Shown here one piece after another: positions 1-64,000 of a stretch of DNA of 64,000 nucleotides; positions within the stretch are counted from its first letter, which is position 1; each line of letters begins with the position of its first letter. Under the pieces are notes generated by a model. That model saw nothing but the letters and a program-made list of their open reading frames with translations, did not search any database and was not told the origin of the DNA. The translations under genes and the position numbers were made by a program. This DNA comes from Pectobacterium fontis (GTDB lineage Bacteria; Pseudomonadota; Gammaproteobacteria; Enterobacterales; Enterobacteriaceae), in assembly GCF_000803215.1 (NCBI RefSeq), contig NZ_JSXC01000018.1, positions 1-64,000 of the forward strand. Reading direction: 5' to 3'.

Positions 1-444
1 CTGTCGCGTCAGAATCTGGCACAGCACCCTCGTACTGCTGAACAACTGGCGAACGTGGCGAAAGGCGGCTACGTGTTGAAAGACAGCGACGGTCAGCCGG
101 AACTGATTCTGATTGCCACGGGTTCAGAAGTGGAGCTGGCTGTCGGTGCGTATGACAAACTGACTGCGGCGGGTCGCAAGGTGCGCGTGGTGTCCATGCC
201 GTCCACGGATGCGTTCGACAAGCAGGATGCGGCGTACCGAGAAGCGGTGCTGCCGAAGGCGGTATCGGCGCGCGTGGCGATTGAAGCGGGGATTGCCGAC
301 TACTGGTTCAAATACGTTGGTCTGAACGGCGCGATTGTCGGCATGACGAGCTTTGGTGAATCTGCTCCGGCGGAGTTGCTGTTCGAAGCGTTTGGCTTCA
401 CCGTCGATAACGTGGTGGAAAAAGCGTTGGCGCTGTTGAAGTAA
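1..444 (+). CDS. tktA: Transketolase, C-terminal part (5' end outside window)
   Basis: The reading frame is open from the first base, so this is the last 147 residues of a longer gene. The sequence ([50 protein letters not shown]) is the C-terminal domain of thiamine-diphosphate-dependent transketolase, which moves two-carbon units between ketose and aldose phosphates in the non-oxidative pentose phosphate pathway. The ThDP-binding and pyrimidine domains would lie upstream of the window. The position next to epd-pgk-fbaA matches the tktA locus of E. coli rather than tktB. Seen: sequence and context; the catalytic residues themselves are not in view. Confidence 0.95.
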
Positions 445-461
445 TCACATCGCGTTAAACC

Positions 462-615
462 TAAGATAAGCCGTCAGCTAATACTGGTAATAGCTGTTCA
501 CTTAAGCGTGGATTTAGGGGGAAACACGGTGATGAGGTTCCCGCAGGGATACCTCGCACCGTGTTTCCCCCGGTCTTAAACGATCGGCATTATTAGCTAA
601 TACTGGCGGCTTTTT
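462..615. repeat. Large imperfect palindrome, copy 1 of a structured intergenic repeat
   Basis: A perfect 14-bp inverted repeat (gggggaaacacggt at 517-530 and its complement at 558-571) encloses a second hairpin, GAGGT-TCCC/GGGA-ACCTC, at 534-555. Outside this, weaker complementarity continues (aagccgtcag near 462 against ctggcggctt near 606), so the whole element could fold as one long arm. The core is repeated at 63214-63264 in this window. It may end tktA transcription, since the outer right arm runs into a short T tract (gcggcttttttg), but its recurrence suggests a dispersed repeat family. The sequence is unlike the ERIC consensus as I remember it. Confidence 0.75.
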
Positions 616-870: not shown

Positions 871-1887
871 ATGACGATCCGTATTGCGATAAACGGTTTT
901 GGCCGTATAGGCCGCAGTGTTTTACGTGCGTTGTATGAATCAGGCCGCCGCGCTGAGATTGCCGTTGTGGCGATTAACGAGCTGGCGAACGCGGAAGGTA
1001 TGGCGCATTTGCTCAAGTACGATTCCAGCCATGGACGTTTTGCGTGGGATGTGCGTCAGGAATGCGATCAGCTTTATGTTGGTGATGATAGTATTCGCTT
1101 GTTGCATCAGGCAGAAATACCGCACTTGCCCTGGCGAGAACTCGGTGTTGATATCGTACTGGATTGCAGCGGTGTCTACGGTAGCCGGGAAGATGGAGAA
1201 GCCCATCTGGCGGCAGGCGCGAAGAAAGTGTTGTTTTCTCATCCAGGCACGGCGGATCTGGATGCGACGGTGGTGTTTGGCGTCAATCACCAGCAGTTGG
1301 AAAGCGGGCATCGTATTGTTTCCAATGCATCCTGTACGACTAACTGCATTATTCCGGTGATCAAACTGTTGGATGATGCTTTCGGTATCGAGAATGGGAC
1401 GGTAACGACCATCCACTCATCGATGAACGATCAACCGGTGATCGATGCTTATCATCACGATCTGCGGCGTACCCGAGCCGCAAGTCAGTCGATCATCCCG
1501 GTCGATACCAAACTGTCGGCGGGGATCACCCGTATTTTTCCGCAGTTTGTCGATCGTTTTGAGGCGATATCGGTGCGGGTGCCGACGATTAACGTCACGG
1601 CAATTGACCTGAGCGTTAGCGTCAGGAAAGCCGTAAACGTGAATGAAATTAACGCACTATTGCAAAAATCAGCGCATGAGTCGTTTCGTGGTATAGTTGA
1701 TTATACTGAATTGCCATTGGTGTCGGCTGATTTTAACCACGATCCGCACAGTGCCATTGTTGACGGTACGCAGACACGGGTCAGTGGTCAGCATCTGATT
1801 AAAACATTGGTCTGGTGCGATAACGAATGGGGCTTTGCCAATCGGATGTTGGATACCACGCGTGCGATGGCAGCCTGCGGTTTCTAG
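871..1887 (+). CDS. epd: D-erythrose-4-phosphate dehydrogenase
   Basis: Protein of 338 aa of the GAPDH superfamily. The N-terminus carries the NAD-binding motif NGFGRIGR (8-15), and the active-site motif SNASCTTNC places the nucleophilic cysteine at residue 155. Similarity to Epd rather than GapA, and the pgk and fbaA genes directly downstream, indicate that it oxidises erythrose 4-phosphate to 4-phosphoerythronate, the first step of the DXP-dependent pyridoxal phosphate pathway (pdxA lies elsewhere in this window). The ATG at 871 starts right at the conserved [12 protein letters not shown] terminus. Probably transcribed with pgk (72-bp gap) from a promoter near the Cra-like box. Confidence 0.96.
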
Positions 1888-22291: not shown

Positions 22292-22360
22292 ATGCGTACT
22301 ATCAGCCTAATCACCACGATTATTACCATCACCGATACAACCAGTAACGGTGCGGGCTGA
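22292..22360 (+). CDS. thrL: thr operon leader peptide
   Basis: A 22-codon ORF starting [14 protein letters not shown] and ending SNGAG then TGA. Seven codons are Thr and five are Ile, so 12 of 22 read the two regulatory amino acids. Ribosome stalling at these codons when threonyl- or isoleucyl-tRNA is short prevents formation of the terminator downstream. It is too short for ordinary gene finders. Confidence 0.93.
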
Positions 22361-22414
22361 CGCATATAAAGATTCCAGAAAAAGCCCGCACCGAACAGTG
22401 CGGGCTTTTTTTTT
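22350..22414 (+). terminator. thr attenuator (terminator and competing antiterminator)
   Basis: The terminator stem AGCCCGCAC (22383-22391) pairs with GTGCGGGCT (22398-22406) and is followed by eight T. The same GTGCGGGCT also occurs at 22350-22358, inside the end of thrL, and can pair with 22383-22391 instead. That gives two exclusive structures, the hallmark of translation-coupled attenuation. Confidence 0.92.
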
Positions 22415-36235: not shown

Positions 36236-36285
36236 TCGCCCTTGAGCGGGCGCAGTAGCAGCCACAAGGCTATTGCTGGCAATCA

Positions 36286-36317
36286 GCACGGGCGTCGAGG
36301 AAACTCTGCGCCCGTGC
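36286..36317 (+). other. Conserved-looking hairpin in the dnaK-dnaJ spacer
   Basis: Perfect 9-bp stem GCACGGGCG/CGCCCGTGC with an inner GAG/CTC extension, in the 108-bp gap. There is no T tract, so it should not stop transcription; it may tune dnaJ expression or protect the dnaK mRNA end. In E. coli a candidate small RNA (tpke11) has been proposed in the same spacer; no homology was tested. Confidence 0.5.
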
Positions 36318-36343
36318 ACGCATGTTGAGGGGCAGGAAAAGAA

Positions 36344-37477
36344 ATGGCGAAGCAAGATTATTACGAAACTCTGGGCGTTGCTAAAAGTGCAGATGAGCGC
36401 GAAATAAAGAAAGCGTACAAGCGTCTGGCGATGAAGTACCACCCGGATCGTAATCAGGGTGATAGCGAGGCAGAAGCCAAGTTCAAAGAGATCAAAGAAG
36501 CCTACGAGATCCTTACCGACGCGCAAAAACGTGCCGCTTACGACCAGTACGGTCACGCGGCGTTTGAGCAAGGTGGTATGGGCGGAGGCGGCGGCTTTGG
36601 CGGCGGCGGTGCCGATTTTGGTGATATTTTTGGCGACGTGTTCGGTGACATTTTTGGCGGCGGTCGCCGTCAGCGCGCGAGCCGTGGATCCGATTTACGC
36701 TACAACATGGAGTTGACGCTAGAAGAAGCAGTACGTGGCGTCACCAAAGAGATCCGTATTCCCGCACTGGAAGAGTGTGATGTGTGCCACGGCAACGGCG
36801 CGAAGCCGGGGAGTTCGCCAGTCACTTGTCCAACCTGTCATGGTAACGGTCAGGTGCAGATGCGTCAGGGCTTCTTTACCGTACAGCAGGCATGTCCACA
36901 CTGTCATGGTCGCGGCAAGATCATTAAAGATCCGTGCGTCAAATGTCACGGTCATGGGCGCGTAGAGAAGAGCAAAACGCTGTCGGTGAAAATTCCGGCG
37001 GGCGTGGACTCGGGTGACCGTATCCGCTTGTCTGGTGAAGGTGAAGCGGGTGAGCACGGCGCACCGTCAGGTGATTTGTACGTTCAGGTGCAGGTTAAAG
37101 CGCACCCAATCTTCCAGCGTGAAGAGAATAATCTGTACTGCGAAGTACCGATCAACTTTGCGATGGCAGCATTAGGCGGCGAGATTGAAGTTCCGACGCT
37201 GGATGGCCGCGTGAAGCTGAAAGTGCCTGCGGAAACGCAAACCGGGAAACTGTTCCGTATGCGTGGCAAAGGTGTGAAATCAGTACGCGGCGGGGCGCAG
37301 GGCGACCTGCTGTGCCGTGTAGTGGTTGAAACGCCGGTGAATCTGAACGAGCGTCAAAGACAGCTACTGCAAGAACTCGACGAGAGCTTCGGTGGCCCGT
37401 CTGGTGAAAGAAACAGCCCGCGTTCGAAAAGCTTCTTCGATGGTGTGAAGAAATTTTTTGACGATTTGACCCGTTAA
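36344..37477 (+). CDS. dnaJ: Hsp40 co-chaperone DnaJ
   Basis: 377 aa (E. coli 376). The J domain (1-70) contains the HPD motif in KYHPDRNQ, followed by a Gly/Phe-rich region (about 75-110) and a zinc-binding region with four CxxCxGxG repeats: [24 protein letters not shown] and CVKCHGHG. The C-terminal substrate-binding domains follow. It delivers clients to DnaK and stimulates its ATPase. Cotranscribed with dnaK. Confidence 0.98.
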
Positions 37478-62524: not shown

Positions 62525-63178
62525 TCAGAAATCCGCTTCGCAGCGAAAGTGCATTGGCGTATTGAAAGCCGGATGCGTGATAGCCAGTTCTTGCGCGTGT
62601 AGTAACAGGCGAGGGGCCAACGCTTTGGCGTCGGGATGGGCATAGAAGCCATCGCCGAGGATAGGGTGGCCGAGTGCCAGCAGATGGACGCGCAGTTGAT
62701 GGGAGCGACCGGTAATCGGCATCAGTTTGACGCGCGTCGTACCGTCCTCATCCCGTGAGATCACCTGATATTCAGTCTGTGCCGCTTTGCCTTCTTCAAA
62801 GCAGACCTTCTGTTTCGGGCGATTTGGCCAGTCGCAGATCAGCGGCAGATCGATAACGCCTTCATCCTGTTCCATATGTCCCCAGACGCGGGCAAGGTAG
62901 GATTTCTTTGGTTCACGCTCGCGAAACTGACGCTTTAATTCGCGTTCGGCGGCTTTCGTCAGTGCGACAGCGATCACACCGCTGGTCGCCATATCCAGAC
63001 GATGCACCGATTCGGCTGTTGGGTAATCCGCCTGAATACGGCTCATCACGCTGTCTTTGTGTTCAGGCGCACGGCCTGGAACCGACAGCAGACCGCTGGG
63101 TTTATTCACCACCATGATGTGCTGATCCTGATACAGAATGTGCAGCCAGGGATCGGTAGGCGGGTTATAGGGTTCCAT
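62525..63178 (-). CDS. rluA: Dual 23S rRNA/tRNA pseudouridine synthase RluA
   Basis: 217 aa (E. coli 219) from ATG 63178 (MEPYNPPTDPWLHILYQDQHI) with AAGGTG upstream; the open frame to 63328 crosses an intergenic repeat and is not conserved. The catalytic Asp is in SVHRLDMATSG; RPKQKVCFEEGK and GRSHQLRVHLLALGHPILGD follow. It makes pseudouridine 746 in 23S rRNA and 32 in some tRNAs. Confidence 0.96.
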   Translation of the reverse strand: MEPYNPPTDPWLHILYQDQHIMVVNKPSGLLSVPGRAPEHKDSVMSRIQADYPTAESVHRLDMATSGVIAVALTKAAERELKRQFREREPKKSYLARVWGHMEQDEGVIDLPLICDWPNRPKQKVCFEEGKAAQTEYQVISRDEDGTTRVKLMPITGRSHQLRVHLLALGHPILGDGFYAHPDAKALAPRLLLHAQELAITHPAFNTPMHFRCEADF

Positions 63179-63213
63179 CGGGGCACCTTTCAGGCAACAT
63201 ATAATGTGTGATA

Positions 63214-63264
63214 TTAGGGAGAACACGGGGATGAGGTTCCCGCAGGGAGGCCTCGCCCCGTGGT
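63214..63264. repeat. Structured intergenic repeat, copy 2
   Basis: CACGGGG (63224-63230) and CCCCGTG (63256-63262) enclose gatgaggttcccgcaggga, a core identical over 19 bases to copy 1 at 530-549. The hairpin has the same nested layout, GAGG-tt-CCC-gca-GGG-agg-CCTC. It lies in the 168-bp gap between rapA and rluA. Outer arms of copy 1 are not well conserved here. Confidence 0.75.
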
Positions 63265-63346
63265 ATGCCCGTGTATCTCGATTTTGCAAACAACATGCCG
63301 TTTTAGCAGCGGTATGGCGTGATGCCAATACCGCTGTCAGAAACGC

Positions 63347-64000
63347 TTACTGGTGCGTCACCACCACCAGACGGATCGCATCCAGACGCCAGTTGGCTTC
63401 ATGGAGATTGCTTAGTACCTGTTCACGCTGGTTTTCCAGCGCTGTCAGTTCATCTTCACGAATGTTGGGGTTAACGGCTTTTAGCGCTTCCAGACGTTCC
63501 AGTTCGCGGCGCAATTGCAGGTCGGCCTGCTCCTGAGCCTCGGCGATAAGCTGGCGTGCCTGCGTTTCTACCAGCGCTTCCGCCTGTTGCAACATGGCAT
63601 GAACATCGGCCTGTACCGCATTCACCAGCTTGCTGGACGTATGACGGTTTACCGCATTAAGCTGGCGGTTGAAGCTTTCAAACTCAACCTGTGCCGCCAG
63701 ATTGGTGCCTTTACGGTCCATCAGCAGGCGAACCGGCGTTGGCGGCAGGAAACGGGTCAGTTGCAGGTGTTTCGGCGCCTGCGCTTCCACAACGTACACC
63801 AGTTCCGCCAGCAGCGTGCCGACCGGTAACGCTTTATTTTTCAATAATGACACCGCGCAGCTTCCAGTATCACCGGATAGCACCAGATCCAGCCCGTTAC
63901 GGATCAGCGGGTGTTCCCAACTGATAAACTGGGCGTCTTCACGCGAGAGCGCCTGATCGCGATCGAACGTGATCGTGCAGCCGTCCTGTGGCAAACCGGG
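63347..64000 (-). CDS. rapA: RNA polymerase-associated ATPase RapA, C-terminal part
   Basis: Open from the window edge to the stop at 63347, so only the last 217 residues are present. The sequence ([79 protein letters not shown]) is the C-terminal region of the Swi2/Snf2-type protein RapA (HepA), which recycles RNA polymerase. The helicase domains lie outside the window. Order djlA-rluA-rapA as in E. coli. Confidence 0.95.

Follow-up and report, generated by a model that had tools for sequence, protein, structure and literature searches.

Two copies of a palindrome lie near opposite ends of a 64,000 nucleotide stretch of Pectobacterium fontis contig NZ_JSXC01000018.1 (the window), and at one stem position they carry different base pairs. 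The initial annotation of the window suggested that this difference reflects either selection for the folded form or spread of a structured element, and the question raised by the locus is what kind of element this is and why its fold is kept.

Direct reading of the window confirmed both copies, their shared bases and the pair swap: the stem position is T530-A558 in copy 1 and G63229-C63257 in copy 2, and the 19 nucleotides GATGAGGTTCCCGCAGGGA are identical at 531–549 and 63230–63248. Over 62 nt the copies are 79% identical (repeat family D3). The span first given for copy 2, 63214–63264, clips the conserved unit, which was placed with covariance model R1 at the limits listed in Table 1. In a wider, model-guided alignment (A3, below), the swapped pair was U-A in 30 of 73 distinct rows, G-C in 29, U-G in three and A-U in one, and was unpaired in five and gapped in five.

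Table 1. Features of the window that bear on the two hairpin copies
Feature	Position	Strand	Remarks
Transketolase gene, 3′ end	1..444	+	NCBIfam TIGR00232, 184.3 bits, below the 682.25 cut-off; last 147 aa in the window
Left target duplication	476..487	+	12 bp, AGCTAATACTGG
Copy 1 miniature transposon	488..594	+	107 bp; IS4-type ends around the same hairpin as copy 2
Hairpin within copy 1	512..579	+	R1 E 6.4e-15; GTATCTCG tail partly deleted
Right target duplication	595..606	+	12 bp; followed by terminator arm and T tract
Erythrose-4-phosphate dehydrogenase gene	871..1887	+	NF010058 over cut-off; downstream of copy 1
rluA	62525..63178	-	NF007543 over cut-off; beside copy 2
Copy 2 hairpin	63211..63281	+	R1 E 1.5e-19; between rapA and rluA, antisense to both
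Copy 2 inner part	63229..63257	+	Bounded by the pair G63229-C63257
rapA, 3′ end	63347..64000	-	NF003426, 296.4 bits, below the 576 cut-off; cut by the window end

The conserved unit is about 70 nt long and consists of an outer stem of four pairs, a GAAAC/GGTCG internal loop, further stems of seven and five pairs, a TCCC-GNA-GGGA tip, and two conserved unpaired tails, TTTTA and GTATCTCG. A wider alignment was analysed with shuffle and slide controls for uncorrelated stem changes, which would speak against a selected fold, and such changes did not occur. This alignment (A2, MAFFT) held 47 sequences, obtained by reducing 138 distinct copies to 89 by thinning and then by exclusions and a second thinning; eight unusually gapped loci and three tandem entries from a single locus were left out. 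In A2, 95.6% of cells were paired, versus 88.2% in shuffles, and double changes were seen at nine pairs and in 56 cells, versus 4.2 pairs and 14.8 cells in shuffles; one pair in this count was one column off and nearly empty, and was corrected in a later model. Sliding the stem reduced the paired cells to 46.6–55.5%. The model-guided alignments A3 and A4, which lean towards the covariance model that guided them, gave 96.0% and 96.7% paired cells, with 129 double-change cells versus 34 in shuffles for A3 and 116 versus 29 for A4. RNAalifold recovered nearly the same fold from A2, in which U29 was additionally paired with G or A in 46 of the 47 rows. Pairing is thus maintained while the letters change, and the fold is conserved through compensatory changes across the wide alignment, as the initial annotation had proposed from two copies. 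The unpaired AAA and GGT are as conserved as the stems. Most named copies come from a search in which parts of the tip, of stem 3 and of the tail were prescribed, so that conservation is overstated in those parts; stems 1 and 2 lay outside the search pattern. An extra outer pairing of the tails (GAT with ATC) was not supported, as its three innermost positions were paired no more often than in shuffles; two positions farther out were somewhat above shuffles. A likeness to the hammerhead ribozyme, considered by comparing letters without computation, was dropped because the strand order misfits.

The non-Watson-Crick cells bear on which strand folds. Among 156 distinct sequences read on the + strand, G.U was found in 145 such cells and A.C in 31; without the commonest wobble pair the counts were 63 and 31 (p 0.0013), and after thinning to 75 sequences 36 and 20 (p 0.044), p-values that serve as guides only since the sequences are related. 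The G.U excess favours the + strand, whether in RNA or in single-stranded DNA. The + strand of copy 2 was predicted to fold at -39.8 kcal/mol (z -4.05) and the opposite strand at -29.9 kcal/mol (z -3.65); that the minus strand folds too counts against a reading as RNA of a single strand.

The hairpin is present in about 50 copies in its own genome (4.15 Mb, 105 contigs), where R1 gave 54 rows at E ≤0.01, with copy 1 matched on both strands. Copy 1 as a BLAST query gave 44 rows there, part of which come from the palindrome matching on the reverse strand. The 18-nt core occurred 40 times at ≤2 mismatches and the reversed pattern not once, and therefore the repeat is not due to chance. In draws that used stricter filters, by which weak matches were lost, R1 matched 51 of the 392 genomes sampled from the GTDB family of P. 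fontis (23 of 154 genera), seven of 295 genomes order-wide, all within the same family, and in the class-wide draw only the genome of origin among 369. The carriers among the matches listed, from a scan that fixed part of the motif, included Pectobacterium, Samsonia, Serratia, Citrobacter, Dryocola, Cedecea, Prodigiosinella and Edaphovirga. The consensus had no BLAST match among 20,395 E. coli genome records or 72,556 plasmid records, and a query including the flanks matched just the rluA gene or unannotated DNA in the E. coli and plasmid collections.

Neither window copy matched an Rfam 15 family at the gathering score, and at E ≤1 eight loci yielded one weak match, outside the hairpin (L070, 1113–1178). 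Elsewhere in the window the gathering scores were exceeded by the threonine operon leader (22299–22414) and the tpke11 sRNA (36271–36344). In several genera the hairpin or its 3′ half is tandemly repeated (L147, L217, L222, L224, L237 and L350). A longer hairpin replaces the tip in three copies of one genus (L351–L353, genus g127), where the remaining fold is kept, and that genome has at least 11 R1 rows. One congener (G403) has 18 framed copies among the matches listed, with 80–89% identity to copy 1, which perhaps reflect a lineage-specific expansion.

Spread of the element, the other possibility raised at the outset, was borne out by target duplications and by an empty site for copy 1. The transketolase terminator is uninterrupted in all 24 congeners, and in P. 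fontis 107 bp stand between two copies of AGCTAATACTGG. The gene preceding copy 1 was also considered as talB, which was ruled out as the NCBIfam match is transketolase. In the predicted fold (-77.9 kcal/mol, z -9.15) the arms of the terminator remain paired around the insert and adjoin the T tract, so that the insertion would enlarge rather than destroy the terminator, which may still terminate.

Scoring of the flanks of 176 thinned copies, in which shuffled flanks reach at most 0.6% per end, assigned both IS4-type ends to 65 copies, one such end to 35, both YPAL-like ends to 11, a mixed pair to one and neither frame to 64; copy 2 of the window, without clear ends, is in the last class. Target duplications were found in 36 of the 73 copies with both IS4-type ends drawn from 178 screened, versus 0.28% for exchanged flanks, and 29 of the 36 were 10–12 bp long. 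On the left of these 73 copies A-runs numbered 38 and T-runs seven, and on the right T-runs numbered 27 and A-runs nine. This arrangement resembles bidirectional terminators, and the target sites are terminator-like hairpins. The framed copies have terminal inverted repeats, which the 64 of 176 copies without either frame lack, and the element is small (copy 1, 107 bp), multicopy and without a transposase of its own, as is a MITE. An IS4 transposase (PF13006) was searched for in the draft genome of P. fontis with no match; this domain was found in 28 of 198 genomes of the family, including a congener whose transposase is 423 aa long. Matching ends occur as a pair, spaced about 1.4 kb apart, at 13 of the 30 IS4-transposase loci inspected; the left end of the miniature element resembles the right end of these loci, and its right end resembles their left end.

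YPAL-framed copies, L336 and L348 among them, have an entire hairpin duplicated on their flanks. In the better pairing of the ends, four copies with YPAL-like ends scored 12–14 per end versus a maximum of 10 in 2000 shuffles. In the rapA-rluA region of congeners a YPAL-like insert was also seen near an inverted hairpin; it is 166 bp in three of them (L285, L289 and L290) and longer in another (L286), as if interrupted.

Among 25 genomes of the genus, P. fontis included, 16 have copy 2 at this site and in this orientation. In eight others the hairpin lies inverted beside rluA with different flanks, and one of these (G368) carries, about 7 kb from there, a remnant of the first kind as well (L293). 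In the remaining genome (G410) the locus is split, and the stretches covered, which exclude its middle, contain no hairpin match. Across the 16 genomes, differences per site are 0.026 in the core, 0.040 in the left spacer, 0.146 in the right spacer, and 0.069 and 0.091 in the coding ends, with the fastest codon phase at 0.18 in rluA and 0.23 in rapA; as the left spacer is also slow, part of the constraint may belong to rluA. Changes in stem 2 within this locus were single and not compensatory, three sequences gaining a G.U (L276, L282 and L283) and one an A.C.

The hairpin also occupies a second locus, for which the query contained flanking DNA: all 25 genomes of the genus have it there, 12 in one orientation and 13 in the other, within shared outer flanks; for two of these copies (L369 and L377) the loose pattern matched both strands and orientation was set from the alignment. 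Its core differs at 0.041 and 0.011 per site in the two forms versus 0.18–0.24 in the adjacent 60 bp; farther out the values are 0.08–0.11, slower than in the DNA adjoining the core. Hence the hairpin changes more slowly than adjoining DNA at two loci. The core rate was also below both neighbours in 25 of 34 ortholog groups. Since these groups contain tandem copies from a single locus as well as copies that a core pattern had picked out, the case for constraint rests on the copy 2 locus and the second locus instead. In one form of the second locus inverted repeats, TCAGGCYAC and GTRGCCTGA, stand beside the core. The simplest reading of this locus is an in-place inversion; for the copy 2 locus, inversion and separate insertions are equally likely.

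With a simple ORF caller, 24 of the 33 own copies with both neighbours called had the upstream gene on the same strand, which becomes 23 of 33 since the caller misread copy 2; before that correction 13 of the 33 were at convergent sites and four at divergent sites. Among all copies with neighbours within 400 bp the upstream gene was on the same strand in 89 of 138, and among 17 bare copies chosen, some of them orthologous, in 14 (exceptions L084, L086 and L132). The neighbours, among them kup, lysS, cysM, iolD and apbE, are so varied that no pathway theme was seen. A weak leading-strand bias (41 of 62 copies among the matches listed for three genomes, p 0.015, with orthologues included more than once) decides nothing.

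On balance, we lean slightly towards a structured module, probably working at the RNA level, which has been spread by terminator-seeking MITEs and is locally retained, with a putative function. Miniature transposons with IS4-type ends, YPAL-like in some genera, have carried the hairpin into terminator-like hairpins, where it may act in cis as folded RNA, mostly downstream of a gene on the same strand. It could then be an intercistronic or 3′-end mRNA element that stabilises the message, directs its processing or binds a protein. The strongest evidence against an RNA role is that orientation to the genes is not fixed (16 versus 8 genomes at the copy 2 locus, 12 versus 13 at the second): a cis-acting RNA that works on one strand only should be sensitive to orientation, and copy 2 is antisense to both its neighbours. 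More tentatively, we suggest one conserved folded module common to two unrelated terminator-seeking frames, retained at fixed chromosomal sites as a portable regulatory hairpin whose orientation flips between species. In an alternative reading the element matters as DNA, a folded single strand or cruciform serving for instance as a protein or recombinase site, with the in-place inversions as a by-product. The hairpin is constrained in both orientations relative to genes, the two forms of the second locus differ in orientation inside the same outer flanks with inverted repeats beside the core, and the tip is a GNA triloop, which is unusually stable in DNA. G.T is the mildest DNA mismatch, and thus the G.U excess is compatible with DNA as well. 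We regard this reading as unlikely, given that the leading-strand bias is weak and that the strand of the upstream gene is favoured, for which a DNA site offers no clear reason beyond insertion preference.

It is still less probable that the element is an ordinary MITE with a neutral palindrome, in which covariation stems from subfamily ancestry or from correction of one arm by template switching and not from selection. Many copies are recent and related, the shuffles leave that relatedness in place, and correction in quasi-palindromes is a known mutational route. Yet G.U states occur at a fixed locus, in the three copy 2 sequences named above, and several unpaired positions are no less conserved than the stems; the slower change of the core than of adjoining DNA at two loci weakens this reading further. 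That the hairpin is a REP-like element moved by a RAYT transposase seems very improbable: it is palindromic, intergenic and multicopy as REPs are, but its target duplications are mostly 10–12 bp and its ends IS4-type, and the core of about 70 nt and the 107 bp of copy 1 exceed the 20–40 bp given for REPs in an excerpt of PMC3733652.

The kinds involved, MITE, IS4 ends and YPAL ends, are already known. YPAL (RU-2) is likewise enterobacterial, palindromic and intergenic, and candidate YPAL-like ends occur in 11 of the 176 hairpin copies; an excerpt of PMC2229807 describes targets at dyad symmetry and duplications of 3–26 bp. The published YPAL unit, however, is about 168 bp with another interior, and the hairpin copies have IS4-type ends far more often. 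When the core consensus was compared by blastn-short with one YPAL-like copy, from the same intergenic region of a congener, no match to its interior was found. With the IS4 subgroup the element shares its ends and the size of the direct repeats (10–13 bp in Table 1 of PMC2266710, the part consulted), and differs in that the hairpin unit has no transposase gene and none was detected in the draft genome of P. fontis. ERIC (RU-1) is also an enterobacterial MITE-like repeat that folds, but differs in length, termini and target duplication (127 bp, TA termini and TA duplications in an excerpt of PMC2759123), and by eye in sequence. Correia/NEMIS of Neisseria, by description, is also a short repeat; the excerpt of PMC2229807 gives the proposal that RNase III cleaves its hairpin within transcripts of adjacent genes. 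Among the titles and abstract openings listed in a literature search there was no description of this hairpin, or of a covarying interior common to two end types and held in place.

The interior fold is kept across many genera, is apparently common to two end types and is nearly unchanged at loci where mobility seems to be over. Bacterial MITEs are often treated as decaying repeats. The hairpin enables a concrete test of how mobile hairpins become regulatory parts, and of why terminators tolerate insertions.
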